A model generated the notes under the pieces. The model ran no database searches. It was given only the letters and a program-made list of their open reading frames with translations, and was not told the DNA's origin. From positions 1 through 26,718 of the IMG/VR virus record IMGVR_UViG_3300047497_000210: DNA of 26,718 bases; one strand, given 5' to 3'. The DNA comes from a virus. The translations under genes and the position numbers were made by a program. This document shows positions 2,313 to 26,577 of this stretch, piece by piece; position 1 is the stretch's first letter, and each line of letters opens with the position of its first letter.

Positions 2313-2861
2313 ATGCCCAAGCCCAAAGGAATTTGCGAGACGGAGTTGAGCGAAGAGCAGCAACTGAAGCTGATCGACTGGCTGATCAACGAGGCCATCG
2401 AGTATCGGCCGGCGGCGGCGCGGATCGAGGCGGAGTTTGGCGTCAAATGCTCCAAGGACGCTGTCAAAACTTTTTACGACAATGTCTGCTGGCCGCTTGT
2501 CTTGGAGCGGCGCTCTCGTGCGCGGGACCAGGCATCGCGCCTGGAGGCCACCTTGGAAGAGGACGAGCGGATCGAGACGGCGATGTTGTCGCAGCTCAAG
2601 CAACGGGCCTTCGAGATCATGCTGAAACCGAACCCCGACCCCAAGGAGGTCGTGGCGTTGCTTTCAATGGCCTTGAAGGCGCGGGACCAGAAACTCGACC
2701 AGGCCAAGCTCGCCCAGGAGAAAAGCAAATTCGATTTGATGTTGCGGAAATACGAAGACCAGTTGGCGAAGGTGCGCGAGATCGCGACGGCGGCGCAGGC
2801 CAAGGGCGGCCTGACGCCCGAGACGCTGGCCAAGATTGCGGAGGCGGCGAAGCTTTTATGA
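2313..2861 (+). CDS. terminase small subunit-like protein, Mu gp27-like arrangement (182 aa)
   Basis: The N-terminal 60 residues look like a helix-turn-helix module: a short helix ending in an acidic, Leu-rich segment, then a region in which SKDAVKTFYDNV would be the recognition-type helix. The rest is charged helix with strong coiled-coil character and a C-terminal helix. Small DNA-binding proteins of this layout, placed directly before a gp28-type large terminase, are the DUF3486/gp27 class in Mu-like phages. The expected role is recognising the viral genome and loading the packaging motor. I preferred the ATG at 2313; a TTG at 2298 would add five residues and overlap the previous gene. The stop overlaps the large terminase start (ATGA). 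Confidence 0.65.
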   Translation: MPKPKGICETELSEEQQLKLIDWLINEAIEYRPAAARIEAEFGVKCSKDAVKTFYDNVCWPLVLERRSRARDQASRLEATLEEDERIETAMLSQLKQRAFEIMLKPNPDPKEVVALLSMALKARDQKLDQAKLAQEKSKFDLMLRKYEDQLAKVREIATAAQAKGGLTPETLAKIAEAAKLL

Positions 2862-4297
2862 GCGAGATACTGCTCGATAAAAAAGATGACGGCGAGGGTA
2901 GCGCTGCGGCCGTTGCCGACGCACCCCGCCGTCATCCCGGTAACGCCAAGATTGTCCCGCCGGAGACGTTGCTGCTGCCGTTCCAAAAGAAATGGGTGGA
3001 AGACAAGGCGCGGCTCAAGATCGCGGAGAAGTCGCGCCAGATCGGTTGGACGTGGGCGACGGGTTTCAGCCTGGTCATGCGGCAGAGTTTGAAGGACGCA
3101 AAGCATGACGCGTGGATATCCTCGCGCGACGATCTGCAGGCGCGGCTCTTCCTGGAAGACTGCAAGAATTTCGCGACGCTGCTTTCGATTGGAGCGGATG
3201 ATCTGGGCGAGCGCGTGATCGACACGACCAAGAATTCCGCCTACGTGCTGCAGTTCGCCAACGGGAAGCGGATCAATTCGATGTCGAGCAACCCGGACGC
3301 GCAGGCGGGCAAGCGGGGTTCGCGCGTGCTCGATGAGTTCGCGTTGCATCCCGATCCGCGCAAGCTCTACAGCATCGCCTATCCCGGAATCACCTGGGGC
3401 GGTTCGCTGGAGATTTTTTCCACGCATCGCGGCTCAGCCAATTTCTTCAACGACCTCATCGTCGAGATCAAACACAAGGGGAACCCGAAAGGGTTCAGCT
3501 TGCACACCGTCACCCTCCAGACCGCGCTCGATCAAGGCTTCCTGGCCAAGCTTCAAGCGAAGCTGCCGCCTGACGACTCCCGCCAGGCGATGGATGAGGC
3601 CGATTATTTCAACTTCATCCGGGCCGGTTGCGCGGATGAGGAAAGTTTCCAGGAAGAGTTTTGCTGCAACCCCTCGGACGATAACGCCGCCTTTCTCAGC
3701 TACGAACTGATTCAGAGTTGCGAATATAAACCGGGCGAAGCCTGGGAGTCCGAGCGCCGGACGGGCGATTCTCCCAAGGGCGAGTTTTACGTCGGCGTCG
3801 ATGTGGGGCGGGACAAGGACCTGACGGTGATCTGGGTGGTGGAGAAACTGGGGGACATGCGCTTCACGCGCGATGTCATTACGCTTGACAGAAAGGCTTT
3901 CGATGAACAGGAAGATGTGCTCTACCGCATCCTCGAAAAGCCTGGCGTCCGCCGTTGCTGCATCGATCAGACTGGCCTCGGCCGTCAATTTGCGGAGCGG
4001 GCCATCAAACGGTTCGGCCAATACAATGTGGAAGGCATCCACTTCACCGGGCCGGTCAAAGAGGAGCTCGCCTATCCCGTCCGCGCCGCCTTCGAGGACA
4101 AGACCGTCCGCATCCCGAGCGACAAGGTGATCCGGGCCGATCTGCGTTCGATCCGCAAAGAAACCACCGCCAGCGGCAACATTCGTTTCACCGGCGAGCG
4201 GACCAAGAACGGGCATGCGGACCGGTTCTGGGCGCTGGCCCTGGCGTTACACGCGGCCAAGACGCAGGGCGGCGGCTACTGGGGGAAAGTGGTATGA
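2858..4297 (+). CDS. terL: phage terminase large subunit (479 aa)
   Basis: This is the packaging ATPase and nuclease. Residues 58-65, KSRQIGWT, form the deviant Walker A seen in many large terminases. VLDEFA at 157-162 is Walker B followed by the acidic catalytic residue, and STH at 188-190 fits the coupling motif. The C-terminal RNase-H-like nuclease shows Asp315 in GVDVGRDKDLT, Asp370 in CCIDQTG, and Asp455 in the GHADRFWA stretch, which together form the expected metal-binding set. Length is normal for a Mu gp28-like terminase. The ATG at 2858 overlaps the small-subunit stop (ATGA). A longer in-frame open stretch reaches back to 2309, but it is only the shadow of the upstream gene in another frame. 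Confidence 0.93.
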   Translation: MSEILLDKKDDGEGSAAAVADAPRRHPGNAKIVPPETLLLPFQKKWVEDKARLKIAEKSRQIGWTWATGFSLVMRQSLKDAKHDAWISSRDDLQARLFLEDCKNFATLLSIGADDLGERVIDTTKNSAYVLQFANGKRINSMSSNPDAQAGKRGSRVLDEFALHPDPRKLYSIAYPGITWGGSLEIFSTHRGSANFFNDLIVEIKHKGNPKGFSLHTVTLQTALDQGFLAKLQAKLPPDDSRQAMDEADYFNFIRAGCADEESFQEEFCCNPSDDNAAFLSYELIQSCEYKPGEAWESERRTGDSPKGEFYVGVDVGRDKDLTVIWVVEKLGDMRFTRDVITLDRKAFDEQEDVLYRILEKPGVRRCCIDQTGLGRQFAERAIKRFGQYNVEGIHFTGPVKEELAYPVRAAFEDKTVRIPSDKVIRADLRSIRKETTASGNIRFTGERTKNGHADRFWALALALHAAKTQGGGYWGKVV

Positions 4298-4695
4298 CGC
4301 CCGGTTATCTCGATTTCGACGGGGCTCGGAATGCGCTTCGGTTTCCTCCTGGCGCGGGCTGGGCTTCCGTCGATCCCTTTTCCCTTGGCGACCATCATGT
4401 CGGTATTGCGTCGGCGCTGAATCCGCTGGTCAGAATGTACGCCGGAGCCCGTAAGCGCATAAAAGCAGGGTTCAAGGCCGCCAGGGGACTTCGCTTTAAA
4501 ACGGCCCAGGACGATTTGGGCGCGGCCATGAGCCGGAAATCGGCTCTCGACGCCCCACAAGCCCGGCTTCAATGCAATGCAAGCGTATTAAACGCGAAGG
4601 CTGAAGGTCGAAAATGGCTATTTTTGACCAGCCTTGAACCCATCTTATGGCCCCACAACGGGTCTTGTGCCCAACCGATGGGGGTATGGCGGTGA
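4294..4695 (+). CDS. doubtful ORF between terminase and portal (133 aa)
   Basis: An open frame starts with an ATGA overlap on the terminase stop and runs to 4695, ten bases into the portal gene. The translation resembles no family I know. Its second half reads through a series of hairpins and contains codons unusual for this window, such as ATA, TTA and CTA. The first 50-60 codons look more protein-like than the rest. I think a short real gene truncated by an inserted element, or no gene at all, are both possible. If it is not coding, this is about 390 bases of non-coding DNA in an otherwise gapless cluster. Confidence 0.3.
   Translation: MTPGYLDFDGARNALRFPPGAGWASVDPFSLGDHHVGIASALNPLVRMYAGARKRIKAGFKAARGLRFKTAQDDLGAAMSRKSALDAPQARLQCNASVLNAKAEGRKWLFLTSLEPILWPHNGSCAQPMGVWR
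4500..4685 (+). other. structured AT-richer element before the portal gene (possible RNA or inserted repeat)
   Basis: Consecutive inverted repeats fill this stretch. The strongest is at 4597-4635: AAGGCT (4597-4602) pairs with AGCCTT (4630-4635). After a three-base GAA bulge, GGTCGAAAAT (4606-4615) pairs with ATTTTTGACC (4620-4629) around a GGCT loop, with one G-U pair, giving 16 base pairs. Next comes CCCATC (4639-4644) with GATGGG (4678-4683), enclosing CACAA (4654-4658) with TTGTG (4665-4669). Weaker hairpins lie at 4504-4521, 4530-4546 (GAGCCG/CGGCTC) and 4583-4595. Local base composition is more AT-rich than the flanking genes. Candidates are a structured RNA, a packaging-related site, or a mobile palindromic repeat. 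No T-tract follows, so a terminator is unlikely. Confidence 0.6.
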
Positions 4696-6899
4696 ATTTC
4701 GCGCAGGCCATCGAACTTGCTGCCGGGGTGAAACCGGAGTTCCGGGAGGACACCTTTCGCCGCCTTCTTCCCAAGGTCAAGTCCGGGGCGCCGTTCCCGT
4801 TCAACAAGCTGATTCCGTATGACGCGGTGGGCGGCGAACACCTGAACCATCCCTACAAACAGAGCGCCTGGGTGCAACGAGCGATTAAGAAGATCGCCGG
4901 GCCGATCTCGGCCGTTGATCTGAATTTCACGCTGGGCGAAGAAGCGTTCAATGATCCGATCCTGGATGCGTTCTGGGCCAACCCGGCCATTGACGGTTCG
5001 GGACGGATGACGCGGGCGGACTTCGTTGAAGCGAGCATCGGCTGGCTGAAGCTCGAAGGGGAGTTTTTCTGGATCATGGACGATACCTGGCTGGGACCGT
5101 TTCCCAACGCCTCGCGCGTCTCGCCGCTGATCATCGCCCGTCCCGATCACATGCGGCATATTGTCAACAATAGCCAGATCATCGGCTGGGATTACGTGGA
5201 TGCGGGCGGCAAACACATCGCGCTTCTGCCCGAGCAAGTGATCCACTGCAAAATGTGGAATCCCTACGACCCGTTTCGCGGCTGCTCGGAAATGCACGCG
5301 GCCAAGGATGCGGCGGAAGGCGATTTCATGGCGGGCAAGTTCAACAAGAACTTGATGGCGAACAACGGCGACCAGGGCGTTTTCATCGTGGCCAAGGGAG
5401 GGATGCCGGATGACACGCAACGGCAAATGATGATTGACATGATCCGCGAGAAGCGCGAACTCGCGCAACGCGGACAATTCCGGGCGGCGTTTCTCGTGGG
5501 CGACGTGGAAGTGCAGGACCCGAAGATCCACGTGCCGGACGCGGCATTCATCGCCGTGCGCCTGGAGAACCGGCACGAAATCTACATGGCCTTCGGAGTG
5601 CCGCCGAGCATGGCGGACGTGCAGGCGAGCTACAGCATCGGCTCGGCCAGCGACTGGTTCATGCTCATTACCGAGACGTGCATTCCCTCGGGCGGGAAGC
5701 TGTGCAACGCCATTGATCGTGCGGCGCGATTGCAAACCGGCAAGGACGTGCGGTCCGCGTTCAATTGGAACGAACACCCCGTGATGCAAGCGGTACGGCG
5801 CGAGCGCACGGACACGGCGCAAAAGTATTTCCAGATGGGCGTGCCGATGGACAAGGTGAACGAATACCTCGGCCTCGGTCTGCCCAAATACACCGGCTGG
5901 GAACGCGGCTATCTGCCTGCAACGCTGGTCCCGGTGCAGGAGGAATTGCCGCCTCCTCCTGAGGACGATCCGACCCTGGAAGAGCCGACCGGCGATGACG
6001 ACGTGGCGCTCATGCTCAAGGCGCTGGACCCGCTCGAAGGCATGAGGCGAGCCCTGGCTGCGCCCAAGCCGCTGGCGCTCCTGGCGCTGAACGGTTGTTG
6101 CTCTCGCGCGGTGAAAGACGGGTTGCTCGTGCGCGTGGCGACTCCCAAGGAAATGGCGCAATGGCGGGCGTTGCAATTGCAGCGGTCGGCGACGCGACGG
6201 GCCTACATCGCCAAGATCGGCAAGGTTCTTTTCGAGGCGCGGGCGGAAGTCCTGGCGAAACTGGAAGCCCGGCAAAAAAGTATCGAGACAAAATCCGTCG
6301 CGTCGGACTTGATGTTCGACCTGCACGATTTCACCTCGAAGCTTTTCGCCTCGATCCGGCCCGTGACCGAGAATGCGCTGCAGTCGGCCGGAAGCGAACT
6401 GTTCGAGGAAGTCGGGCTCAACCCGAGCGACTTCAGTTATTCGCCCGAGGCCGCGCTGCAATTCGTCAAGGAGCGCGAGTTGAAGCTGAAGAACGTTCCC
6501 CAGGAGATTTCGGACGGAGTGCGCGACACCATCGAGGACTCGCTGGAAAACGGCGACTCGATTGCCGACACGGCGGACGCGGTGCGGGCGAAGTTCAACG
6601 AGATATCCAAGGGCCGCGCGACCGCGATTGCCACCACGGAAACAGGCGTTGCATACGAGTCGGCGCGGGATAAGGCGATGAAAGCGGCTCGGATCGGCTG
6701 GAAGAAATGGTTGACCAGCGGCAACGCCAACGTCCGCCCCACCCATGCCGAGGCGGACGGCCAAATCGTCGCCGTGACTCAGCCCTTTGAAGTGGGCGGC
6801 GAAGAACTCCGCTTCCCCTGCGATCCGCTCGGTTCCCCTGGGGAAGTCATCAACTGCCACTGCGTCTCCGTCCCGAGCACGAAAGGTCCCACCGCATGA
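4686..6899 (+). CDS. portal protein fused to Mu-F-like minor head protein (737 aa)
   Basis: Residues 1 to about 410 look like an HK97/Mu-type portal: an N-terminal helical clip region, an aromatic-rich middle (GWLKLEGEFFW), and a stem/crown section ending in GLPKYTGWERGYLPA. A Pro- and acid-rich linker follows (about 415-445). Helices from about 470 to 600 lead to a C-terminal Mu gpF-like domain (about 600-735) marked by ATTETGVAYESARD, then PTHAEADGQ, a VGGE stretch and the terminal INCHC. In Mu these are separate genes (gp29 and gp30); here they are one polypeptide. The portal is the DNA gate and the motor docking ring; the F-like part would sit inside or at the vertex. I chose the ATG at 4686; an in-frame ATG at 4647 lies in the structured element. 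Confidence 0.88.
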   Translation: MAVNFAQAIELAAGVKPEFREDTFRRLLPKVKSGAPFPFNKLIPYDAVGGEHLNHPYKQSAWVQRAIKKIAGPISAVDLNFTLGEEAFNDPILDAFWANPAIDGSGRMTRADFVEASIGWLKLEGEFFWIMDDTWLGPFPNASRVSPLIIARPDHMRHIVNNSQIIGWDYVDAGGKHIALLPEQVIHCKMWNPYDPFRGCSEMHAAKDAAEGDFMAGKFNKNLMANNGDQGVFIVAKGGMPDDTQRQMMIDMIREKRELAQRGQFRAAFLVGDVEVQDPKIHVPDAAFIAVRLENRHEIYMAFGVPPSMADVQASYSIGSASDWFMLITETCIPSGGKLCNAIDRAARLQTGKDVRSAFNWNEHPVMQAVRRERTDTAQKYFQMGVPMDKVNEYLGLGLPKYTGWERGYLPATLVPVQEELPPPPEDDPTLEEPTGDDDVALMLKALDPLEGMRRALAAPKPLALLALNGCCSRAVKDGLLVRVATPKEMAQWRALQLQRSATRRAYIAKIGKVLFEARAEVLAKLEARQKSIETKSVASDLMFDLHDFTSKLFASIRPVTENALQSAGSELFEEVGLNPSDFSYSPEAALQFVKERELKLKNVPQEISDGVRDTIEDSLENGDSIADTADAVRAKFNEISKGRATAIATTETGVAYESARDKAMKAARIGWKKWLTSGNANVRPTHAEADGQIVAVTQPFEVGGEELRFPCDPLGSPGEVINCHCVSVPSTKGPTA

Positions 6900-7570: not shown

Positions 7571-7576
7571 TTGACA

Positions 7577-8998
7577 ATGAATCGTTATCGAAAAAATCAC
7601 CGCGCCGCGCTGGGAGCTTATTTCCTGGCCGGTCTGTTTCTCACCGCGTTTGTCGCGGTCCTCGCCATTGTGTTCCTTCATCCGCATGTCATTCCGCTCG
7701 TGGGAGGGGGCGGCATCGCCGTGCTCTTCCTTTCCGGGACCGTGCTAACCACGGAAGAGTTCCAAACGACCGTGCTGGGCGGCGTGAAGAAGCTGGGAGA
7801 GCGTCAAGAGGAGTTTCAGAAATCGACCGAGAAACTGCTTTCCGACACCGACCGGCTCGACAAGGAAACCAAAAAATCCTTCGAGGAATTGCGCAAGGTC
7901 GCCAACGACCAGGATGCCGCGCTGAAGGCGTTGCAGAAGATCCAACTGAAGCTGCACGAAGAATCGTTGGCGGCCGGTTTCGATCCCATCCAGCGGATCG
8001 TGCGCGATGAGCGCAAGCGCGGGATTATGAACGCGGTGGTCCGGGCGGCCATGTGCGACAACGACTCCGAATACAAACGCTTCGTCACGCCGATCCTGAA
8101 GGCCATTGGCGAAGATTCCGGCGAAGGCGCGACGTTGATCGTGCTGCAGCTCTACAAGGAAATCTACGACACGCTCGCCGAGTATGGCGACTGGTCCACG
8201 CTCGGCGTGCGCCGCCTGGGAACGAAGATCACCAACTTCCCGATCAAGAGCGCTCGGGCGGTGGCGAACTGGATCAGCACGGAAGCGGCCGCGATCGCCG
8301 ACGACACCAACGAGGCTGGCTCGACGATGACCCTCACGGTCCTCCCGAATGCGGTTCTGCTCAATGTCTCGCGCCAGTTGATCGAGGACTCCGAGTTCGA
8401 TGTCACCTCGATGGTCATGGACGACTTCCAGGAAGCGTTCAACCTGCGCCTGGACACGGCCGCGTTCATTGGCAGCGGGACCAACGCCAGTGTCGCGGTG
8501 GACGGCGGATTCACCGGGTTGTTTACCGGGACCGTGCAAGTGAGCGCGGCCCTGGGCAACGTCTCGGTCGAACAACTGGCCTATGACGATCTGCTCAAAT
8601 GTTTGACAGCCGTTGCGCCGATTGTCCTGAAGCGCAAACCGTGCTGGTGGGTGCATCCGCAGATGCTGGCCCGGCTGATGTCGATCAAGGACAATAACGG
8701 CCGCCCCATCTTCCTCGGCGCTCTTGAAGCCCCGAGCTACGGCGCCATCGGGACGATCCTCGGCTTCCCGGTGATCCCGGTCTTTGTCGCGCCGAACACG
8801 GACGCGCCCGGATCGCCGGTCATCGCCTTTGGCGACCGCAACACGCAAGTCGTTGGCATCCGTCAGGACTTTGTCTTTGAGGCCAGCGACCACTATCGCT
8901 GGAACACCTTGGAGCGTTCCTTCCGCGCCTACGGCCGGGCGGCGAGCGGGACGCGCATTCCCAACGGCGGATCGACCCTCAGCACCTCGGCGCGTTAA
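7577..8998 (+). CDS. HK97-fold major capsid protein with hydrophobic N-terminus (473 aa)
   Basis: From about residue 130 the protein reads as an HK97-fold capsid: the E-loop-like NFPIKSARAVANWI region, the spine helix segment around LIEDSEFDVTSMVMDDFQEAFNLRLD, an FTGLF element, and the P-domain/A-domain strands ending near the C-terminus. Residues about 56-128 form a charged coiled coil, the usual delta/scaffold region removed by the prohead protease. Unexpectedly, residues 11-34 and about 37-54 are strongly hydrophobic and look like two membrane segments. Translation from the ATG at 7577 includes them. A GTG at 7742 would give a conventional capsid start, but neither start has a Shine-Dalgarno sequence. 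The ATG is preceded by TTGACA. Confidence 0.88.
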   Translation: MNRYRKNHRAALGAYFLAGLFLTAFVAVLAIVFLHPHVIPLVGGGGIAVLFLSGTVLTTEEFQTTVLGGVKKLGERQEEFQKSTEKLLSDTDRLDKETKKSFEELRKVANDQDAALKALQKIQLKLHEESLAAGFDPIQRIVRDERKRGIMNAVVRAAMCDNDSEYKRFVTPILKAIGEDSGEGATLIVLQLYKEIYDTLAEYGDWSTLGVRRLGTKITNFPIKSARAVANWISTEAAAIADDTNEAGSTMTLTVLPNAVLLNVSRQLIEDSEFDVTSMVMDDFQEAFNLRLDTAAFIGSGTNASVAVDGGFTGLFTGTVQVSAALGNVSVEQLAYDDLLKCLTAVAPIVLKRKPCWWVHPQMLARLMSIKDNNGRPIFLGALEAPSYGAIGTILGFPVIPVFVAPNTDAPGSPVIAFGDRNTQVVGIRQDFVFEASDHYRWNTLERSFRAYGRAASGTRIPNGGSTLSTSAR

Positions 8999-9036: not shown

Positions 9037-9810
9037 ATGGCACTGAAATCCGACACCTTGCAGGGCGGCGCGAAGCGCGAGCCCATTCACTTCAAACGCG
9101 AAACGGGCAAGAAAATTGCCAAGGAGCGCACGAAGAAAAATCCGGCCGAGATCGAAGACGCGGAGGCGAACATCAAAGCCGTCGCCTCCAAGCATTGCCT
9201 GATCGACAAGCACACGCTGGCGCCGGGAGACACCGTTGACGTCACCGAGGATGAATTGAAAGCTCATCCCTGGCTGGCCAAGGTGGCGCTGCTGATTGCG
9301 TTGCTGACGCTCCTTTGCACGGGGGCGCAGGCGCAAACCTACAACGCCAATCAGCTCATCCCGGCGAACACCAACAATCCCTGGTATTCCCCGACCATTG
9401 GCGCCATCCCCGATTTTATCGCGGGCGGCACAGAGGTGACCAACGGATTCCCTGGCGGCGCGACAAACACGGCCGTCTTTGGAACGAACCTCGTCAGCCT
9501 GGTGAAATACGATCAGATCGTTTGCCAGATCACCTTCAACCAACTGGGCGGCGCGTCGGTGGGAACGGCGACAAACTACGTCTTCCTCTATCCGTCCGCA
9601 GACGGAGTGAACGTGGACACGAATCACCCGGTTGCCACGTTCTCGGTTCCGACCGTTGCGAGCACGAACGGCATCCTGGTGACGAACCTCAATAACACCG
9701 TCATCGGCAGCATTGGCTACGTGCAGGCGGGAGTAGGCAGCCCGACCGGCGGCAACACGACAACCAACCTCACCATCCAGTTCTTCGGAAAGCCGAAGCG
9801 GAACGGTTGA
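9037..9810 (+). CDS. composite protein with internal signal peptide, possible head decoration (257 aa)
   Basis: The protein has two unlike halves. Residues 1 to about 82 are Lys/Glu-rich and soluble, ending in a compact motif, LAPGDTVDVTEDELKAHPWL, of the kind found at the end of small phage head proteins. Residues 83-99 are a perfect Sec-type hydrophobic core with an AQA site before Gln100, followed by a Thr/Asn/Gly-rich beta-type domain. Read whole, it has an internal membrane segment or cleavage site. A GTG at 9283 (Val83) would start an independent secreted protein of 175 residues. Its place after the capsid gene suggests a decoration or head-fibre protein. I recognise no family. The ATG at 9037 follows TTGACACT. 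Confidence 0.7.
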   Translation: MALKSDTLQGGAKREPIHFKRETGKKIAKERTKKNPAEIEDAEANIKAVASKHCLIDKHTLAPGDTVDVTEDELKAHPWLAKVALLIALLTLLCTGAQAQTYNANQLIPANTNNPWYSPTIGAIPDFIAGGTEVTNGFPGGATNTAVFGTNLVSLVKYDQIVCQITFNQLGGASVGTATNYVFLYPSADGVNVDTNHPVATFSVPTVASTNGILVTNLNNTVIGSIGYVQAGVGSPTGGNTTTNLTIQFFGKPKRNG

Positions 9811-13954: not shown

Positions 13955-14395
13955 GTGCGCAAGGTCACCATCATTCCCACCGGCGCAGGCAACGGGCAGG
14001 AAGTCGTCATCTACGATGAAACGAAAAGTCCTTTGCCTGACGCTTGCGCTGATGGGTTTGTGCCGCAGACCACGCGCCTCATCCGTCCGGTCCCCGGCGT
14101 CCGCGCTGGTTATCAGCCGACCTTTGATCGGCAAAACTCCCTCGTCCGCTGGACCTTTACCGTTCTCCATACTTTCGACTCCTACGAGGACTGTCAGGAT
14201 TTTGTGGGGCAGCGGGCTGATGTCCTTCCCGGTTCGGGGGAGTTGCTCATCAATCTGGTCAGTTCCGAAGGCGCCACCATTCGCGCCTACAAAACCTGTT
14301 TCATCGAAAGCCACGGCCCCGTCTCCGATGTTGGCGTGTCTGTCCGCTACCGCTACCAGCTCGTCCTTAACTCCTCCTACTCGATAACCCCATGA
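13955..14395 (+). CDS. hypothetical tail-region protein (146 aa)
   Basis: The protein is mostly beta with evenly spread hydrophobic residues, no signal peptide and two central Cys residues. Its C-terminal strand (VSVRYRYQLVLN) resembles the closing strands of tail-tip adaptor proteins, but I cannot assign a family. The stop overlaps the first spike gene as ATGA (14392-14395), so it is probably made with the spike and could be an adaptor that seats it. The start is probably the GTG at 13955, because no ATG exists near the beginning; a GTG two bases earlier is out of frame. Confidence 0.6.
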   Translation: MRKVTIIPTGAGNGQEVVIYDETKSPLPDACADGFVPQTTRLIRPVPGVRAGYQPTFDRQNSLVRWTFTVLHTFDSYEDCQDFVGQRADVLPGSGELLINLVSSEGATIRAYKTCFIESHGPVSDVGVSVRYRYQLVLNSSYSITP

Positions 14396-17300
14396 AGTTT
14401 TTCCGCTCACTCCCGGTTCTGTTGTTGCTGGCCGCCACGTCGCTGCAGGCGCAGACCGCGCTCCGCATCGCCGCCGACGCGGCCGTTCGCAAGAGCGCGT
14501 TCATTCCCGACCTCAACAACAACAACGCTTCTCTCTCTTTCGTGCGCGGGGACGACGTCACCTTCGAGATCGGTCTTTTCCAGAACGGGCGGTTCTACAC
14601 CAACCTCTATCAACTGACCAATCTGACCCTGCAGGTTTTCACGGCGCAGAACACCACGAACGGACCGTTGATGGCGCAGAGCGTGACGAACTCGGTCGGG
14701 TCGCCGTGGTGGAACACCAATTGCACCCTGGGCGGCTGGACCTCGAACAGTTTGCCGGACACCAATTGGCAGGCGGAGTTTTACTTCCCTGGGATGCAAA
14801 CGAGCATTCCGCTCAATGGACAGGCCAGTCAAACCTACTGGCTTCGTCTGGTCGCCCTGACGACGAACAATCACACCGTCACCTTCATGGAGGGGCCGAT
14901 CACCGTTTACGACGGCCCGTATTTGCAGAGCTACATCGCGCCTGGCTTCCCGCTTTCGCTCGCCGTGGACCAGTTCGGCGACTTGATGACGGCGTTTACC
15001 AATTTCTTTAACGCCAACTCGAACCTGCTCAATCTGTCCGTCAACAACAACCACGGGACGGGCGGCGGCTCGGGTTCGCCGGGCACGAACCTGGTGGCGG
15101 CCGGCGGGAATTTGAATTTGAACGGGGCCCTGACCAACATCTCCTCCATCACCTTCGGCGGCGGCTCGGGCCATCCCTACTTTCATTCTGATCTGCTCAA
15201 TGCCGGTTGGGATTTTTCCGGGCTGGGCTGGTGGACCAATGTGCAAACGTTTTACTCCGTCGTGACCGAGGCCTATGGCGACAGCGCCACGGCCCCGGCC
15301 AATAACGGCACGGAAATCCGCCACACGCAAACTGCCAACGCCCAGGACACCGATCCTCTCGAGGCCTCGGAGGGAACGATTCTCGGCGGAAATAATTACT
15401 ACGATGGGAGCGGGACCGTGGGTTATGTCTGGCAACTCGGCTGGCTGGGACAGCGCGATGAAGTGCTCCCGCAGTTCGCCGTTTCCAACGCGACACAGAA
15501 CGTCATCCTCAATTACCGCACGCGGTTCGTGGTCAACTCGAACAGTTCCAGCATCCTCGTCACGCTTCCGCCGATGACCAACTGGATTCGCGGCATGGGC
15601 GTCGTCACGAATTGGAGCAACGGCGCGCATCCGCTCCAAGCCGATCTCCTGGCCTGGGGCGATCCGGGCAGTTCTTTCATCTTCCTCAACGGCGGCCCTG
15701 GCGGGATGACCTTTGTCAATCAGGAGCACAAACCATTCGACGACGGCACCACCAACAAAACCCTTCTGCCTTACGATTGGGCCATTGTCTGGGGGACGAG
15801 CAACGCCATGCACGCGGACATCGGCGGATCCAACTACTCTGCTTCGATCCCACCGGTCGGCAACGGCGCTGGGCTGACCAACCTCCAGGCGGCGAACATC
15901 GTCGGCCTGGCGAGCACGAACATCGCCAAGAATCCGCAAACGCTCTCGGCGGACACCATCCCGACCGCGCCGATGTTCCTTGTGGCGGGACCGGACGGCT
16001 CGAACCATTGGGTCGGCGGGACCGCTCCCTTTTCCAACAACGTCACTTTCAGCAACGTCGTTTCTCAGACCAACACCTCGGGGCAGGTGGTGGCGTCGCA
16101 GCCGCGCGGCTTCGTCGGCGATGGCTCGGCCCTGACCAATTCCACCGGCCTCCCGCCTGGTTGGACGAATATCTTCGCCTTCGGCGCCACCAATGACGGC
16201 GTGCAGATTCTCTACGCCACCACCACCGCCAGCAGCACGACTGTTACCGTCAATACCAATGTCGGCTCTTACTTCAAGCCGCTCGGCTGGGGCGGTTTCA
16301 CCTCGGCGGACGTGGGCAAGAATATCGAGATTCAATCGCACCCGGCCAGCAACCCGAACTCGACGGCCGGGACCATCGTCGCCGTGGTCAACGGCACCAA
16401 CATCACCGTCAGCGTGGCCCCGACCAACACCAGCGTCCTCTGCGATCTCCGCTACGGCACGGACAACACTGGCCCTTTCACCAACGCCATCAACTGGTCC
16501 TACACCAACGGCGGCCTGACCATTTACGTTCCGCCAGGCACGTATTTTATTGACGGCGCGTTCCAACAGTTGAGCAACCTCGCCGCTGGCTACCGCTCGC
16601 AAATCATCTTCCCGCAACCGGAGCGGCACACCACCTTTCCCACCATCACCTTCGTCGGTCCTTCGCGCCCGACGCCTTACAACATTCCCGTCCTCTCCAC
16701 CTACACGCCGCTGCCGCAGGACGGCGCGATCCTCATGTTTGGACGTCAGCCGCCCAGCGCCTCGACCTTCAACACCTCCATCGGCATCCCGAATATTTTG
16801 AGCGGCGGCACCTTCGCCGGGCTGGGCGTCGTCTTCAAGAACCTCCGTTTTCGAGGGCTTAACAATCCGCTCAACCCGCTCATCTCGATGGCGGGCATGG
16901 GCATGTTCCGCATGGTCGATTGCTCGGTCGATGACGGCTCGGACAACACCAACCAGGTTTGGCCTCCGACGCATTCGACCGGCGCGGGCGTCATCATGCC
17001 CAACGCCAACAATATCGCCGACTGTCAACTAGTGGGCAGTTGCGTTGTCGGCCATTACATCGGGGCGCAAGTCGGCGAGTGGGATTACGTCGATAACCTG
17101 ACCTGCAACCGCTGTTACCAGGGCGTCGTTTCGCTCGGCGCCCCGCACGGCCTCTGGATCGGCCATCTGCAGCTCCAGGGCGACAACACCGAGTTCGACA
17201 TCTCGACCGCGACGGCGGCCGTGCAGATCGGCGGGGTGATGTCCATCGACGGCGAGCATGAGACGGGCGCGAACACCACGTCCGAGGACATTTACGACCC

Positions 17301-17901
17301 CTCCAATTTCGGCAACGGCTGCGGCACGGTGAGCGAGACCAAGAGCGGCTCGGTGGATTGGATCCTCGGCAGCGGCATTGGCGGCGTCGGCAACGGCGTC
17401 TTCATGCACTGGCAATGCCCTTACTCCAACGGCTACGTCACCGTCCCGCCGCGCCTCTGGGGGACCAACGCGCAGACGATGGGCAGCGTGCAGGCAGGCC
17501 TCTTGCAATTGACCAACTTCAGCGGCGTCGTCAATAACAACACCAACCTCGGCAACGGCGCCTTCGGGCTGGTCCTTATCACCAACCAGGCCTCGGCCAC
17601 CTTCGGCAGCGCCGTCTCCGGTTGCGCGCAGTTCGCCGCCTCGCCCGCCCCGAGCCTGGCGCGATGGAATGTCAGCCTCACCTTTGGCACGACGCCGCTG
17701 TCCGGCGTCCTCTTCACCAACGCCATCACGCCCGCGCTGGCCTCGGTCCCGAGCGTCTCGATGACTGCGCTGGGCAACGGCCAATTGTTGACTAACGGCA
17801 TCTACATCAGCTCGATCACCACGACCAGCGTCGTGGTCAGCGTGCTTACCGCCCCGGCGTCGAGCGTCACCGGCACGCTCCAATTCCAACTCCAGGAATG
17901 A
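14392..17901 (+). CDS. large tail fibre/spike with Sec signal peptide and pectate-lyase-like domain (1169 aa)
   Basis: Residues 1-20 form a clear Sec signal (basic start, Leu/Ala core, LQA before Gln21). Residues about 48-75 (RGDDVTFEIGLFQNG) resemble the N-terminal baseplate-attachment domain of BppU-type fibres. The middle is Asn/Thr/Gly-rich with two GLTN-type fibre motifs (about 489-497 and 575-583). Near 589 a beta-helix start (FAFGATNDGVQ) appears. About 75 residues later, LRYGTDNTGPFTNAINWSY leads to VPPGTYFIDGA, the pectate-lyase-3 signature, followed by right-handed beta-helix repeats to about 1040 and a C-terminal sandwich. It probably binds or cleaves host surface glycans. A signal peptide is unusual for a tail protein. 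Coupled by ATGA to both neighbours. Confidence 0.85.
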   Translation: MKFFRSLPVLLLLAATSLQAQTALRIAADAAVRKSAFIPDLNNNNASLSFVRGDDVTFEIGLFQNGRFYTNLYQLTNLTLQVFTAQNTTNGPLMAQSVTNSVGSPWWNTNCTLGGWTSNSLPDTNWQAEFYFPGMQTSIPLNGQASQTYWLRLVALTTNNHTVTFMEGPITVYDGPYLQSYIAPGFPLSLAVDQFGDLMTAFTNFFNANSNLLNLSVNNNHGTGGGSGSPGTNLVAAGGNLNLNGALTNISSITFGGGSGHPYFHSDLLNAGWDFSGLGWWTNVQTFYSVVTEAYGDSATAPANNGTEIRHTQTANAQDTDPLEASEGTILGGNNYYDGSGTVGYVWQLGWLGQRDEVLPQFAVSNATQNVILNYRTRFVVNSNSSSILVTLPPMTNWIRGMGVVTNWSNGAHPLQADLLAWGDPGSSFIFLNGGPGGMTFVNQEHKPFDDGTTNKTLLPYDWAIVWGTSNAMHADIGGSNYSASIPPVGNGAGLTNLQAANIVGLASTNIAKNPQTLSADTIPTAPMFLVAGPDGSNHWVGGTAPFSNNVTFSNVVSQTNTSGQVVASQPRGFVGDGSALTNSTGLPPGWTNIFAFGATNDGVQILYATTTASSTTVTVNTNVGSYFKPLGWGGFTSADVGKNIEIQSHPASNPNSTAGTIVAVVNGTNITVSVAPTNTSVLCDLRYGTDNTGPFTNAINWSYTNGGLTIYVPPGTYFIDGAFQQLSNLAAGYRSQIIFPQPERHTTFPTITFVGPSRPTPYNIPVLSTYTPLPQDGAILMFGRQPPSASTFNTSIGIPNILSGGTFAGLGVVFKNLRFRGLNNPLNPLISMAGMGMFRMVDCSVDDGSDNTNQVWPPTHSTGAGVIMPNANNIADCQLVGSCVVGHYIGAQVGEWDYVDNLTCNRCYQGVVSLGAPHGLWIGHLQLQGDNTEFDISTATAAVQIGGVMSIDGEHETGANTTSEDIYDPSNFGNGCGTVSETKSGSVDWILGSGIGGVGNGVFMHWQCPYSNGYVTVPPRLWGTNAQTMGSVQAGLLQLTNFSGVVNNNTNLGNGAFGLVLITNQASATFGSAVSGCAQFAASPAPSLARWNVSLTFGTTPLSGVLFTNAITPALASVPSVSMTALGNGQLLTNGIYISSITTTSVVVSVLTAPASSVTGTLQFQLQE

Positions 17902-20900
17902 GAAAGTTTTTCACCGCGCTCGTCTGTTTCCTGTTCAGCGTTTTGCCGCTGTTCGCCACGGACTTTTATGTGGCCACCAATGGAAGCGACTCTGCGGCAG
18001 GCAGCATCTCGGCCCCGTTCCTCACCTTGACCAAGGCGCAGTCGGCCCAGAACGCGGCCGGGACGAACATCAGCCACATCTACCTTCGCGGCGGCGATTA
18101 TTATAACGTCACCATGTTCCTGCAGGGCGCGGCGGGCGGGGCTGGCCATGACGATAGCGGCGTTCAATGGATCGGTTATCCCGGCGATCCTCCGGTCACG
18201 CTCTGGGGCGGCCAGCCGCTCACTGGATGGCAGCAAATCAGCAACGGTTGGTGGATGGCCTATTTGCCGCCCTACCCATCGGGAGCCCTCAATGGCACTG
18301 TCAACACTCTGAACAATTGGGAGGTCCGCTCGCTCTATGTCGATGGCGTCATGGCCAAGCGGGCCCGCTACCCGGCGACCGGCTTCCTTAGTTACACCAA
18401 CGCATATACGCAGACCGACCTCACCTATATCAACTACAATCCGGGCGATCTTCCGACCTCGATGGTCACGGGCGCGGTCACGACCAACATGGAAGTGCAG
18501 GTCGATTGGTCCTTTGACTCGCAGTTTCTCCAGGTCTCGAACATCAACACCTCCACGCGGTTGATCCGGTTCGTCGGCCAGGTCTGGAGCCAGCGCGGCT
18601 TGCAATTCATTCCCGACATCCAGACCTACCACGTGGAAAACACCACGGAGGGGATGACGCAACAGGGTCAATTTTATTGGGACAAGACCGCGCAAGCTGT
18701 CATCTATAATCCCATCGGCGGGAAGAATCCCAACAATTCCAAGATCATCGCCGGGACGACTAGTCGGATGTGGTTTTTCTTTGGCTACGCCGGCAACCAG
18801 CCGCCCTACGGGACCGGGCCGCACGACATCACCTTCAGCAACCTGAACATGAAGGTCGCGGCCGCCGACGTCGAGCTGGAGGGGACGCTCGCTTATCTCC
18901 TCGATTATTCTTCGCTGATCCAGTTCTACCCCAATTGCGGACCGAACAACATCACCGTGCAGAATTGCACCCTCGGCTGGACGGCCGGCAACGCCATCGG
19001 AGGGGATTACGGCGGCCCCACCAACGTCATGGTGCGCGACAGCGAAATCGGTTTCTGCGGCGGTTACGGCGTTTCGCTCAAGGAGGACGCTTACGGAGCC
19101 GGCCTGACCACGATCAGCAACAATTATATCCACGACTGCGGCCAGATCACCCCGCAAGCCCCCGGCATCAACGTCAATACGAATGCCACCGTCGTCCGCA
19201 ATAACCTCTTCAATTTCCCCGAGGCGGCCGTTGCCGACTCCAGCGGCGCGGACAACTGCCGCTATGTCCTCAACAACTTCAGCAACTGCATGTCGCGCAA
19301 CGAAGACCTCGGCGCCTTCTACCAATATTTTGGCAATTCAGTCGGGCCGGCCCACACCGTGGGCAACCTCATCCAGAGCAATCTTTTTCAGATCGTGGGC
19401 ACGAACATCAACGCCACCGGTGGCGACCCGCGCAATTTCTTCCGCCCGGCCATTTACCTCGATGAACAGTCAAGCAACACCATCGTCGATCACAACATCA
19501 CCCTCGGCTGTCCGATGGCCGTCCTCTGCAACATCGCCCGCTCGAACGCCTTTCAGAATAACATTTTTGTCGGCGCGGGAACCAACACTGGGACCTACGT
19601 CGGGCTGCGCTTTTATTTGTCCTCGGATTCCTCGCTGCCAAACAAGGTCGTCGGCAACGTCTTTTATTCGCTGACCAATTTGCTCTGCGACAATTCCAAT
19701 TTCGTCTCGTCCTGGGGCGGCAACGTCGCTTACTCGGCCGATGGCGTGACCAACGGCATCCCCGCCGGCATGACCATTGCCAACCCGCTCTTGTGCAGCC
19801 TGACCTATGGCGATGAAGAGTTTCTCGGCGCGTCGCCCGCCATCGGCCTGGGCATCGCGCCCGTGACGCTGGTCCCGGTGCCCGGCGGCAACGGCGTCCA
19901 AGGCTTCATCCCGGCGCCCACCAATGGCGACCCGATCATGCCTTCGACGCTCTACGATCCGGGCTGGCCTTACACCGGGATACCCGGCGACATCCCTCCG
20001 CAGCCGACCGGGACCAATGTCCTCAACGTCAAGAATTCTCCCTACAACGCCTTTGGCGATGGCATCCACAACGACACGCTTGCCATTAGCAACGCCTGCA
20101 ATGACGCCTGCGCCCGCTCGACTAATAACAACCAATTCCAGGTCTTTCTCCCGCCCGGCAATTATCTGGTCACGCCCGCCAATCTCCTCGGCGAAGGGTC
20201 GGCCTGCTTCGCCATCCCGAACGGTTTTCCCACGCTCTACCCGCAGGTCGATATTTGCGGGGCCGCGCCCGGCCTCACCACCATCAGCATCAGCAATTCG
20301 TCCTCCGGAGGAACGACTGGTTTTCTTTTGCAACACGGCACTTCGACCGGCTCCTACTTCAACATCGTCGGGGGCGAGCTCGAGGGATCGACCAATCTGA
20401 TCCTTACCGGCAATCTCGATTTCCACGTCGGCAGCGTCATCAGCATCACCCAATCCAACGACCCCGCCTACGTCACCATCACCACTCTGAGCGCGACGAG
20501 CCCCTTCACCAACGGCAATCCCTGCACCTACTGCGGCGAGTCCGGGCAGAAGTGCGACCAGGAATTTGTCACCGTCACCGGTCTGACGGCCGCTGGCGGC
20601 GGTTTGACCAACGTCGGCATCTGGCCGCCGCTAAAATCCAATTTCGAGCCGCTCTTTACCCCGCAGGCCCAGCGTTACGACATGATGACCAATTGCGGCG
20701 TGCGCAATCTCACCATCACGCGCCTGGACCGCGTGGCCAGCGACGCGGGCTACAACATCAAATTTTACGGCGTGCAAGGCGGCTACGTCACCAATGTCGA
20801 GAGCGCATGGTCGCAGGGACCGCACATCGAGCTCAACGATTGTTACCACGCGCGGATCACCTACAACATTATCCACGACGGCGCCTCGGATCAGTCCGGC

Positions 20901-21788
20901 GAGAACTACGGCGTGCGGGCCTTCGAGCATTCTTCCGGTCATCTGATTGACAACAACATCATGGAGAATTTGCGCCATGACTTTGTCGGCGAGGGCGGCG
21001 GGTCGGATATCGTCGTCGCCTACAACCATGAGACCAACGTCATCGTCGGGGCCAACCCGACCACCTTTCTCTCGCGCGGCAATCTCGCCCACGGCTCTCA
21101 CGTCACCAAGGTCCTTTTCCAGGGGAACAACGCGCCCAACGACACGGCCGATCTTTATCACGGCTCCTCTTCCCAATTGGTTTCCTTCCGGGAAAATTTC
21201 AACACTATCAGTTGGGTGCCGCCCAACCAGGTGGACGCCGTGAGCTCCATCGGGGCTCCGTTCTACGGGGCTTACGTTACCAACCAGGGCGGATTTGTAG
21301 CGTTGATGTTCTCCGCCTTTTCCCACTCCAATGCGGCCATCGCTTGCGTCACCCAACCCACCATTCTTCTCGCCACCAATGCGACGGTCGGTCCGTTGCT
21401 CTTAACCAATTCGCCCTCGGGCGGCTGGATCAATCAAAACCAGCCCATGGTCCTGATGACCGGCTACAGCGACGACATTCCGCTCGAAGGCGCCTCGCAT
21501 GCTCCGGTCGATCCGGTCACGGCCCTGTCGTTTTATTATCACGGAAATTGGGACCCGATCAATGGAACGATCTGGCGGTCGGACAATTCGGATCACGCGC
21601 CCCCCAATTCGCTCTGGGAGAAAAGAACGCCCTGGATGTTTGTCCTCTATCAACTCGCGTGGCCTGCCACCGGCCCGGACCTGTCTCCCATGCACACACC
21701 TATCCCGGCCGAAGTCCGCTACAAGGGCTGGAAGCAATCTCACAACCCCAACTGGCAACCGCCCGGCTCCGCCTGGGGCGCGCGTTAA
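17898..21788 (+). CDS. very large spike with Sec signal peptide and two tandem beta-helix domains (1296 aa)
   Basis: Residues 1-20 are a Sec signal (FLFSVLPLFA, cleavage before Thr21). TDFYVATNGSDSAAGS at 21-36 is the typical start of secreted DUF1565-type beta-helix proteins, and helix rungs such as TTISNNYIHDCG (near 400) continue to about 620. A second unit begins near 705: AFGDGIHNDTLAISNAC then FLPPGNYLV, the pectate-lyase-3 signature, with rungs like ARITYNIIHDG near 980. So two complete helices are joined in one chain. Expected role is polysaccharide binding or depolymerisation. Active-site residues cannot be assigned by eye. The start overlaps the previous spike's stop (ATGA), suggesting equal synthesis and perhaps a heteromeric spike complex. 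Confidence 0.85.
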   Translation: MRKFFTALVCFLFSVLPLFATDFYVATNGSDSAAGSISAPFLTLTKAQSAQNAAGTNISHIYLRGGDYYNVTMFLQGAAGGAGHDDSGVQWIGYPGDPPVTLWGGQPLTGWQQISNGWWMAYLPPYPSGALNGTVNTLNNWEVRSLYVDGVMAKRARYPATGFLSYTNAYTQTDLTYINYNPGDLPTSMVTGAVTTNMEVQVDWSFDSQFLQVSNINTSTRLIRFVGQVWSQRGLQFIPDIQTYHVENTTEGMTQQGQFYWDKTAQAVIYNPIGGKNPNNSKIIAGTTSRMWFFFGYAGNQPPYGTGPHDITFSNLNMKVAAADVELEGTLAYLLDYSSLIQFYPNCGPNNITVQNCTLGWTAGNAIGGDYGGPTNVMVRDSEIGFCGGYGVSLKEDAYGAGLTTISNNYIHDCGQITPQAPGINVNTNATVVRNNLFNFPEAAVADSSGADNCRYVLNNFSNCMSRNEDLGAFYQYFGNSVGPAHTVGNLIQSNLFQIVGTNINATGGDPRNFFRPAIYLDEQSSNTIVDHNITLGCPMAVLCNIARSNAFQNNIFVGAGTNTGTYVGLRFYLSSDSSLPNKVVGNVFYSLTNLLCDNSNFVSSWGGNVAYSADGVTNGIPAGMTIANPLLCSLTYGDEEFLGASPAIGLGIAPVTLVPVPGGNGVQGFIPAPTNGDPIMPSTLYDPGWPYTGIPGDIPPQPTGTNVLNVKNSPYNAFGDGIHNDTLAISNACNDACARSTNNNQFQVFLPPGNYLVTPANLLGEGSACFAIPNGFPTLYPQVDICGAAPGLTTISISNSSSGGTTGFLLQHGTSTGSYFNIVGGELEGSTNLILTGNLDFHVGSVISITQSNDPAYVTITTLSATSPFTNGNPCTYCGESGQKCDQEFVTVTGLTAAGGGLTNVGIWPPLKSNFEPLFTPQAQRYDMMTNCGVRNLTITRLDRVASDAGYNIKFYGVQGGYVTNVESAWSQGPHIELNDCYHARITYNIIHDGASDQSGENYGVRAFEHSSGHLIDNNIMENLRHDFVGEGGGSDIVVAYNHETNVIVGANPTTFLSRGNLAHGSHVTKVLFQGNNAPNDTADLYHGSSSQLVSFRENFNTISWVPPNQVDAVSSIGAPFYGAYVTNQGGFVALMFSAFSHSNAAIACVTQPTILLATNATVGPLLLTNSPSGGWINQNQPMVLMTGYSDDIPLEGASHAPVDPVTALSFYYHGNWDPINGTIWRSDNSDHAPPNSLWEKRTPWMFVLYQLAWPATGPDLSPMHTPIPAEVRYKGWKQSHNPNWQPPGSAWGAR

Positions 21789-24097: not shown

Positions 24098-24847
24098 ATG
24101 CCAAGCGGCGCTTTTCCACCATGCAACTGTCCGTTCCCATATCGCCGTATCTACGCTTGGGGCGGCAGCTACGCCGATGCTGCTGCTGGCCTCTTTCCCG
24201 ACGACAAATCGAGCTTCATCGCCTGCTACGAATCGGCCATCGCTCTTGTCAATAGCATCGACATCACCACGGTTCCGTATGGCCAAGTGCGATGGCTCGA
24301 TTACGGCGGTTACGCTGGTTACAAAAGCGATGCCACCTACATCGATCACGGAAACGTCGTCAACAACCCGACGAACATTCCGGGCGGCGGATCAGGCACG
24401 CCTCCCGCTGGCACAGCCGATTTTGGCGCCATCTCGCCCGGTGGCAGCGAACTGAGTTACATGGGACTGACCAATGCGGGCAACGGCGTCAATGCGGGCG
24501 GCTATCAAATCGCGGGATGGGGCGGGGGCGACGGCCAGCCTGCACATGGCGTCTTCGGAATCTCGCGCATCCAAGTCGATCTGAGCGCGTGCAAGTGTGA
24601 TTCGAAATGGTCGCTCGTTTATTGGGACACCAACAGCTATCCAGCGCCAGGTTTCTACACCATCGAATGCCAATGTGATGCCCTCACTTACCCGGATGGC
24701 GGGTGCCCGGCATGCGAGAACGGTTCCACCGCCAACGCCCTTTGCGTGGACATTCCCCCGACCGGTTGGTTTTACCAGGGCGATCCGGACCTACCCATTT
24801 CGTGCCAATACTTCGTGCCTGGCTTCAACTGCGCCGATCTCACATGA
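24098..24847 (+). CDS. Cys-rich hypothetical protein (249 aa)
   Basis: Twelve Cys residues occur, mostly as CxC or CxxC pairs: CNC at 9-11, then CKC, CQC and CPAC in the C-terminal third. The middle is a Gly/Asn-rich section around PGGGSGTPPAG and GGWGGGDG-type stretches that may be a fibre-like or loop region. The arrangement suggests metal binding or disulfide stabilisation. I recognise no family. The start at 24098 follows TTGACATT, whose TGA ends the previous gene; the stop overlaps the next gene as ATGA. Confidence 0.6.
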   Translation: MPSGAFPPCNCPFPYRRIYAWGGSYADAAAGLFPDDKSSFIACYESAIALVNSIDITTVPYGQVRWLDYGGYAGYKSDATYIDHGNVVNNPTNIPGGGSGTPPAGTADFGAISPGGSELSYMGLTNAGNGVNAGGYQIAGWGGGDGQPAHGVFGISRIQVDLSACKCDSKWSLVYWDTNSYPAPGFYTIECQCDALTYPDGGCPACENGSTANALCVDIPPTGWFYQGDPDLPISCQYFVPGFNCADLT

Positions 24848-25047: not shown

Positions 25048-26577
25048 ATGGCATTTGACGAAAAATTTGGGATCAATATCGACATCGGCCTCAGCTCCGA
25101 GTCTTTCCCGAATGCAAAAAAAGCGTCGGACGTTCTGGAGGACGTCGGCGAGAAGGGCAAGCACGCCGGGCAAAAAATCAAAGATGGCGCGGACCACGCG
25201 AATCTTTCGCATCGCCAATTGCACGAGGCAATTCGTTTGCTCGGGCCGGAATTTGAAGGCGTCGTCGGCGTGATGCAGGCGGGCGGGGCCGTCTGGCTCG
25301 GAGGCTTGGCCTTGATCGCGGCGATCATCGGCAAGATCAAGGAGCGGTCGGACGAACTGAAAGAGGCCTGGCTGCACAATCTGGAGGCCATTCAGGCCGC
25401 GCAGGAGCGTTTTGAAATTGGGCGCGAGGAGGCCAGCAATCGGGCGGCGACGCGGGCGACGGAGTATTTGATTCACCAGGCGCATTTGCTCGACGGAATT
25501 AATTTGCTTACGCAGGCCTACGAGCGGAACAAGGCGGCCATTTCCGCCGCCGCGACCGAGGAAGGGAAGTTGGTCGATGCCCAGGAAAAAGCCTATGAAA
25601 TCCAGATGCGCAGCAAGGGCGCGACGGATCAGGAAATCGAGGACCTGAAGACGAAGGCGGAGCGGCATAAACAGGATTTGGAGAACGCGGAGAAAACGCA
25701 GCAAATCACGGCGCAAATGGCCTCGGCCGGGCAACACGAAGCAGCGGCGGCCGCACAGGGTCCGGTGATTGCGGGATTGCAGGGCGCGATGGACCAGAAT
25801 GATCGCGCCTTGCAGGCGGCCAAAGACGCAGCCGCGACGGATAAGGACGTTCTGGAAAATGCCCGCAAGGCGAAGAACGCCGCCGAGCTCGAATTTCAGA
25901 CACGGAGAGGCGATGTTGACAACCTCACGCAGGGGACGATTGATCGCGTCAATAATTCGGATAGTTGGGGGTCATTGGACGAGCACACCCGGAGTTTGAT
26001 CACCAAGGGTCTTTATGATGCGATCAAGAGCAAGTCGGCGGCGGATTCGTCGTTTAATTCTGCGCAGTCGGCTTTTGACACGGCCTCCGCAACGGTGGCG
26101 GAGCGCGAGCGTCAATCATTGGTGCTCAAGGCTGACCTTGAGGCTTCATTGCATCGGCGTGATTCCGAGGCCGAAATTGCGCGTTCGTTGCGGGAGCAGG
26201 CGGATGAAGCGGAGCGGCTGTTGGGCATCCATTTGCAATATCAAGGAGAGCAAAATGCCGCGGCGGACGATGCGACGCGAACCGAGCAGAGGGCGGGGTT
26301 GCCAGCCGGGTCAGAGGCGGCGCGGATTGCCAACGAGGGGACTGCCGGGGTGCATGCGGATTTGGCGCGGGCGGTTGGGGAGGCTCGGTCCGTCCGGGGC
26401 GCGACCGGTGATCAGGCCATTCCCGTCTTGAAGGACGCCGTTTCGATCCTCGAAGCGTTGGCTCTAAATCAGCACGCTTCCGCCGCCGACTTGGACGATA
26501 TCAAGGCTGATCTGGCTTTTCTTCGCGGCAACATCGCCGTGTTGCAGGCTCGCCAGGGAAATTCGCGGATGCCTTGA
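25048..26577 (+). CDS. coiled-coil protein with one membrane segment, tape-measure-like (509 aa)
   Basis: Nearly the whole chain is charged Ala/Glu/Lys/Gln-rich helix with coiled-coil character, interrupted by a hydrophobic stretch at about 79-96 (GGAVWLGGLALIAAIIG). Long helical chains with one or more membrane segments are typical of phage tape measure proteins, which set tail length and help DNA cross the membrane; at about 1.5 angstrom per residue this would correspond to a tail near 75 nm. The protein is short for a tape measure, and it follows rather than precedes the hub-like gene, so an internal ejection protein is an alternative. No signal peptide. The ATG at 25048 follows TTGACCT. 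Confidence 0.55.
   Translation: MAFDEKFGINIDIGLSSESFPNAKKASDVLEDVGEKGKHAGQKIKDGADHANLSHRQLHEAIRLLGPEFEGVVGVMQAGGAVWLGGLALIAAIIGKIKERSDELKEAWLHNLEAIQAAQERFEIGREEASNRAATRATEYLIHQAHLLDGINLLTQAYERNKAAISAAATEEGKLVDAQEKAYEIQMRSKGATDQEIEDLKTKAERHKQDLENAEKTQQITAQMASAGQHEAAAAAQGPVIAGLQGAMDQNDRALQAAKDAAATDKDVLENARKAKNAAELEFQTRRGDVDNLTQGTIDRVNNSDSWGSLDEHTRSLITKGLYDAIKSKSAADSSFNSAQSAFDTASATVAERERQSLVLKADLEASLHRRDSEAEIARSLREQADEAERLLGIHLQYQGEQNAAADDATRTEQRAGLPAGSEAARIANEGTAGVHADLARAVGEARSVRGATGDQAIPVLKDAVSILEALALNQHASAADLDDIKADLAFLRGNIAVLQARQGNSRMP

Follow-up and report, generated by a model that had tools for sequence, protein, structure and literature searches.

Why should the spike genes of a tailed phage open with export signals, when such phages are taken to assemble their particles entirely in the cytoplasm? 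The question is raised by two adjacent genes, here called A and B, in the tail operon of a phage known from IMG/VR record IMGVR_UViG_3300047497_000210, the whole of which (26,718 bases) was analysed and is referred to below as the window. Signals on fibres are unexpected given this view of assembly inside the cell, and we consider it probable that the first 20 residues of both proteins are working Sec/signal-peptidase-I signals, typical of the lineage to which the phage belongs, by which the spikes would be secreted to the periplasm. The relevant features are as follows.

13955..14395, + strand: upstream tail gene, of a family present at the same place in relatives
14392..14395, + strand: ATGA overlap of the stop of 13955-14395 with the start of A
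14392..17901, + strand: gene A, spike protein of 1169 amino acids (signal, BppU-like anchor, fibre element, beta-helix-like region)
14392..14451, + strand: predicted A signal peptide, residues 1-20 (MKFFRSLPVLLLLAATSLQA, then Q), from the sequence and the signal rule
14452..14880, + strand: A residues 21-163, BppU-like virion-anchor domain predicted by profile search and AlphaFold model
14998..15030, + strand: A residues 203-213, TNFFNANSNLL, an element that in relatives lies near the signal of a separate fibre gene
16459..16578, + strand: A residues 690-729, weakly matching a pectate-lyase/epimerase beta-helix family (PF12708, E 0.016, short of the Pfam cut-off)
17898..17901, + strand: ATGA overlap of the stop of A with the start of B
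17898..21788, + strand: gene B, spike or secreted beta-helix protein of 1296 amino acids
17898..17957, + strand: predicted B signal peptide, residues 1-20 (MRKFFTALVCFLFSVLPLFA, then T), from the sequence and the signal rule
17958..19877, + strand: B residues 21-660, like secreted host parallel beta-helix proteins (PDB 9rx2, Verrucomicrobiota genomes)
19965..21785, + strand: B residues 690-1296, second beta-helix-like part, by sequence inspection

In A, MKFFRSLPVLLLLAATSLQA is predicted to be cleaved before QT, with K2 and R5 as the basic residues, a hydrophobic core at residues 7-15 and LQA preceding Q21; in B, MRKFFTALVCFLFSVLPLFA is predicted to be cleaved before TD, with R2 and K3, a core at residues 4-19 and LFA preceding T21. 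The original prediction of complete Sec-type signals on both spike genes was thus correct in coordinates, frames and residues. Both proteins have the anatomy of a Sec/signal-peptidase-I signal (basic n-region, uncharged hydrophobic core, small residues at -3/-1), with Ala at -1 and, in both, Leu at -3, which is tolerated although Ala or Val is preferred. A home-made signal rule (n-region charge, uncharged core and -3/-1 site) scored 12.4 for A and 13.7 for B. Because the rule rarely fires at internal positions of the window proteins (19 of 5690, or 0.33%) or on composition shuffles (1.1%), the opening of two adjacent genes with signals is not due to chance. No ATG, GTG or TTG codon occurs directly after the signal of A (residues 19-34 checked), so that a signal-less isoform is not evident; a later start that excludes the signal was rejected on this ground, and because the coupled start ahead of the signal is common to relatives.

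The signals recur in related phages. No relative of A or B turned up when viral contigs were searched directly by pattern, and relatives were reached instead through their terminase and capsid proteins, the capsid-based searches yielding 96 distinct loci. Among large T/N/S/G-rich (fibre-like) proteins encoded in the fibre slot, flanked by the tail genes and the tape measure, 24 of 39 satisfied a strict signal rule, versus 23 of 330 other downstream genes (shuffle rate 0.4%); a second rule gave 20/39 versus 21/330 (Fisher p=1e-11), and a relaxed rule fired on 2% of shuffles without improving recall. Inspection of the 15 uncalled slot fibres revealed about nine more with a visible signal (for example L209, L213, L258, L287, L347 and L349), for a total of about 33 of 39. 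These fibres belong to several unrelated families that have only the signal and the position in common to all; they include types with typical tail-fibre repeats (L104, L348), and L110 has a signal-bearing beta-helix spike after its capsid gene. Five near-complete genomes have a signal on nearly all large fibre-like genes. Two fibres (L285 and L309) have extra hydrophobic segments, with a basic loop preceding the last signal-like segment, and by the positive-inside rule would still be placed outside. The N-domain of the fibres and a capsid-adjacent protein of the relatives found no match among 50,697 deposited phages. In L210, some 4300-4440 bases past the capsid gene, a signal-like stretch, SLRSYFYFLLSTFYFPLWLCAQ, is in frame with the fibre open reading frame and precedes its first standard start; this stretch contains no ATG, GTG or TTG, as if the start were unusual or decayed.

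A second slot in which signals recur lies directly after the gene of the major capsid protein.

7571..8998, + strand: major capsid protein (phrog_10), its N-terminal region containing two hydrophobic segments
9037..9810, + strand: capsid-adjacent protein of 257 amino acids, containing an internal signal and, towards the C-terminus, a conserved domain
9256..9333, + strand: predicted signal inside the capsid-adjacent protein, residues 74-99 (LKAHPWLAKVALLIALLTLLCTGAQA, then Q), by the signal rule

In all 15 members of the capsid-adjacent family, the conserved domain is directly preceded by a hydrophobic core and an AxA-like site; this signal is N-terminal in some members, and in others it comes after an N-terminal domain that can reach about 145 residues. 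In the window member, the signal-like segment, with AQA before Q, follows the N-terminal domain within one reading frame, a layout found in about eight relatives. Fold matches of this protein were not used, its predicted structure being too uncertain (pLDDT 61). The hydrophobic segments of the window capsid protein lie in 7571-7733, and 47 of the 96 relatives have a capsid protein with a strongly hydrophobic N-terminal stretch, often a hairpin and kept across diverged sequences (L095, L112, L113), which suggests a membrane-anchored capsid precursor. An extension that we think unlikely is that the lineage splits virion building across the inner membrane, with capsids started on the membrane via the capsid-protein hairpin, and with fibres, spikes and the capsid-adjacent protein exported, cleaved and attached outside at lysis.

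What follows the signal of A resembles a part of the virion. Residues 21-163 have, in 13 relatives, a homologue that is encoded on its own, is about 200-300 residues long and lacks a signal (iterated profile search, E 1e-27 to 1e-56). The 16 best PDB matches of an AlphaFold model of residues 21-163 (pLDDT 87) are phage baseplate, neck and connector proteins, and the fold matches include the TP901-1 BppU protein, the 80alpha baseplate and BppU-domain proteins of a viral library. As TM-scores are only moderate (0.4-0.5) and library profile searches found no Pfam, PHROG or NCBIfam match in the region, the domain is called BppU-like and is not filed as a member of the BppU family. The identification of A as a virion-type tail spike is well supported by this predicted anchor domain, and the weak PF12708 match also points to it. 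Residues 690-976 match another phage (tblastn); phage H1 was rejected as a full relative of A, since it matches the beta-helix part only and its protein has no signal.

In about ten of the 13 relatives with a readable next gene, the gene that follows the separate anchor gene is a signal-bearing fibre, sometimes ATGA-coupled to it (L233, L325, L305 and L260); these couplings bear out the earlier argument that ATGA overlaps within the tail operon speak against ordinary host genes. Shortly after the signal, five signal-bearing fibres of relatives have an element like PTNFFAANSNLL, the equivalent of which in A, TNFFNANSNLL, comes shortly after the anchor domain. The relatives therefore have a signal-less anchor followed by a separate signal-fibre, whereas A runs signal, anchor, fibre, and looks like a fusion whose signal ended up ahead of the whole protein; its place at the front would be a coincidence if the signal had no role. 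Homologues starting past the hydrophobic segment had been named as evidence that would refute the signals, and in the narrow sense such homologues exist for A in the stand-alone anchor proteins, yet the other side of the same comparison is that in about ten of the 13 the signal begins the next gene, the fibre.

The first half of B points to a host source. Residues 4-558 align with a 697-residue host-encoded protein, and shorter parts align with many other host proteins; in several of the best host matches the signal ends at the same place, right before a start like DFYVATNGSDS of B. The parallel beta-helix protein of PDB 9rx2 matches residues 20-439 (E 1.8e-6) and, weakly, residues 619-658, and residues 10-68, which take in part of the signal, share 54% identity with a bacterial stretch in MT835907. 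The homology of B 1-660 to secreted host-type beta-helix proteins spans the signal junction. Because the host matches share this junction and 9rx2 matches residues 20-439, the first half of B is most likely a secreted host enzyme that was captured together with its signal. B and 9rx2 may resemble the GH141 glycoside hydrolases, a label for which Pfam and NCBIfam gave no match in B. The last 600 or so residues (690-1296) have no family match in the libraries searched, and it is the position of B and its beta-helix-like sequence that suggest the name tail spike. A candidate phage relative of B, H2, was rejected as a bacterial stretch with SusD-like genes. MT835907.1 (L082) is filed as a phage and reads as a stretch of Bacteroidota genome (SusD-like and secreted proteins); it is probably mislabelled.

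The original prediction had offered two origins for the signals. Capture of secreted host proteins together with their signals suits B, with its host alignment and shared signal junction; it does not suit A, the predicted mature N-terminus of which is a phage BppU-like anchor, and it does not account for the recurrence of signals on the fibre genes of many relatives. Export fits the lineage-wide fibre signals and is favoured, from the sequences, as a trait of the lineage. As products of the late tail operon, A and B would cross the inner membrane late in infection, be cleaved and remain periplasmic, with capsid and tail taking shape in the cytoplasm, until a holin breaks the inner membrane and the periplasmic and cytoplasmic pools mix. 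Because of its BppU-like anchor, A could plausibly dock on the tail once the inner membrane opens; B would more likely act as a free or surface-bound enzyme on polysaccharide of the host or matrix, and could also be mounted on the virion.

Several observations weigh against export of virion spikes. The signal rule fired on 4 of 107 structural proteins in a control set of six annotated phages (KS9, related by its capsid protein, and five whose terminases are related), and across all genes the excess of the lineage over these controls is not significant (p=0.07). The anchor-domain homologues of A have no signal, and so the domain evidently can function in the cytoplasm. Over 64 proteins, the region just past the predicted cleavage sites is not poor in basic residues and is even slightly enriched in them (0.060 versus 0.040 elsewhere, p=0.005), a result that lends translocation no support. 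Few basic residues early in the mature part are a tendency of exported proteins and not a strict requirement. After the tail-tip gene, the window encodes a protein with a Cys-rich start (24098-24847, CNCPFPYRR), and relatives have Cys-rich proteins at the same place (CGCRC, CGCG, CCCC), without a signal; this protein could be the receptor-binding protein, in which case docking of exported spikes on virions would not be required. The verrucophage P8625, an isolate, reportedly lacks signal peptides (PMC4642752), and the feature is therefore not universal in phages of Verrucomicrobiota.

The excess is specific to the fibre slot and the capsid-adjacent slot, and the claim rests on those. Of the four control positives, one resembles a mis-set start, one resembles a decoration protein and none is an annotated tail fibre; the tail-fibre genes of the B3-like control phages have no signal by the rule. 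A signal-type gene lies within 10 kb after the terminase in 6 of 18 prophage loci of PVC hosts versus none of 35 proteobacterial loci with the same terminase family (Fisher p=8e-4), several of the six being capsid, holin-like or lipoprotein genes. Isolated cases exist outside the lineage: Sinorhizobium phage StopSmel (L364) has signal-like N-termini on a tail protein of 931 amino acids (28754-31549) and on a protein encoded before the capsid gene (18791-19282). The surveyed phage-encoded targets of diversity-generating retroelements have no signal peptides (PMC6199706), and in the full-text literature, mostly excluding subscription papers, no phage lineage was found described as carrying signals systematically on its fibres.

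Three other explanations were weighed. The one that survives best, though we hold it to be somewhat unlikely, agrees with the favoured reading on export and differs on the fate of A: the signals would be real but the proteins would not belong to the virion; expressed late, and either secreted or displayed at the surface, they would modify the infected cell as receptor blockers, adhesins or depolymerases. Exported proteins would by that fact be kept apart from assembly in the cytoplasm, B is similar to a host enzyme, the Cys-rich protein is a signal-less candidate for receptor binding, and the pneumococcal phage tail adhesin PblB is reported with a predicted signal (PMC4508584); the BppU-like baseplate anchor of A argues otherwise, as do the position and coupling of the genes, which match those of fibre genes, some of which in relatives have classic tail-fibre repeats. 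It is improbable that the hydrophobic N-termini are instead cytoplasmic assembly tags or membrane anchors, never Sec substrates, that join spike, capsid and decoration proteins and are later removed, although the capsid protein of many relatives has its own N-terminal hydrophobic hairpin, in relatives the anchor domain does its work with no signal attached and there is no shortage of basic residues past the cleavage site; against tags stand the canonical n-region with its basic residues, the Ala at -1 and the [AV]xA found at the best site of 41 of 64 proteins (a choice of site biased towards Ala), together with the signals of the same kind on the host homologues of B, which are ordinary secreted proteins. 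Least probable of the three is capture alone, with the signals as passengers of secreted host genes and without a role in the phage, for despite the host match of B 4-558, the signal junction kept in several host matches, and the 9rx2 and MT835907 alignments, A begins its mature part with a phage anchor and not a host enzyme, signals recur on fibres with typical phage repeats, and the capsid-adjacent family keeps its signal in 15/15 members, where passenger signals should decay.

Two further genes of the window, terminase and portal, are the following.

2858-4297, + strand: large terminase
4647-6899, + strand: portal fused to a MuF-like end (HK97-portal and SPP1 gp7 matches, both below cut-off)

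On the + strand, the upstream part of the window carries a lipoprotein gene, a lipase_3 gene and a small membrane protein gene, then the large terminase; portal, protease, major capsid protein and head-tail genes lie between the terminase and A, as do a DNA adenine methylase-like gene and a likely tail-tube gene, and the 3' end runs A, B, tail-tip-like gene, tape-measure-like gene. Several of these names (e.g. tail-tip-like, tape-measure-like) are based on position. The terminase is 57-60% identical to those of the B3-like transposable phages B3, StopSmel and Lsp-JY19, to which the packaging gene is closest; the B3-like placement means relatedness of the terminase, and the 26.7 kb record is without the early region, where MuA/MuB-type transposase genes would sit. 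Identity of up to 70% to terminases in Verrucomicrobiota genomes makes a host in this phylum likely, on host-linked data that are thin (the capsid family was matched in only 7 of 388 Verrucomicrobiota genomes searched). The lipase, of class 3 (869-1702; PF01764, E 2e-36), lies between the lipoprotein gene and a holin-like gene, upstream of the terminase, and is possibly a lysis enzyme. The tape-measure-like gene (25048-26577) is 3' of the tail-tip-like gene in the window and 5' of it in relatives, so that gene order differs locally.

Should a large uncultured lineage place signals on its fibres and its capsid-adjacent protein as a rule, then either assembly ends outside the cytoplasm or the fibre genes have a second, secreted life; the signals would also serve as a marker for the lineage, in which, at this locus, a probable captured secreted host enzyme (B) adjoins what is probably a true phage spike (A). 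Among known systems, the BppU-type baseplate proteins (TP901-1 ORF48, 80alpha baseplate) share the fold class of A 21-163 in a confident model, at about 10% sequence identity and TM of about 0.4-0.5, and to our knowledge carry no signal peptide. Like the P22-like beta-helix tailspikes, A is a large late-operon protein with a probable beta-helix (690-729, weak PF12708); we know of no tailspike with an export signal. The secreted host parallel beta-helix proteins (PDB 9rx2) are matched by B in alignment and in signal position, but B is fused to a second part of about 600 amino acids and is located in a phage tail operon. The coat proteins pIII and pVIII of the filamentous phage M13 are virion proteins made with Sec signals, but filamentous phages assemble at the inner membrane without lysis, whereas the window phage has a terminase, a portal and an HK97-type capsid protein. 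The nearest precedent for the signals of A and B is PblB of streptococcal phages, a tail protein with a predicted signal peptide that has been proposed to be exported, and which in S. mitis is released by phage-induced permeabilisation (as cited in PMC4508584); it is, however, a single case, in a monoderm host (PMC4508584).

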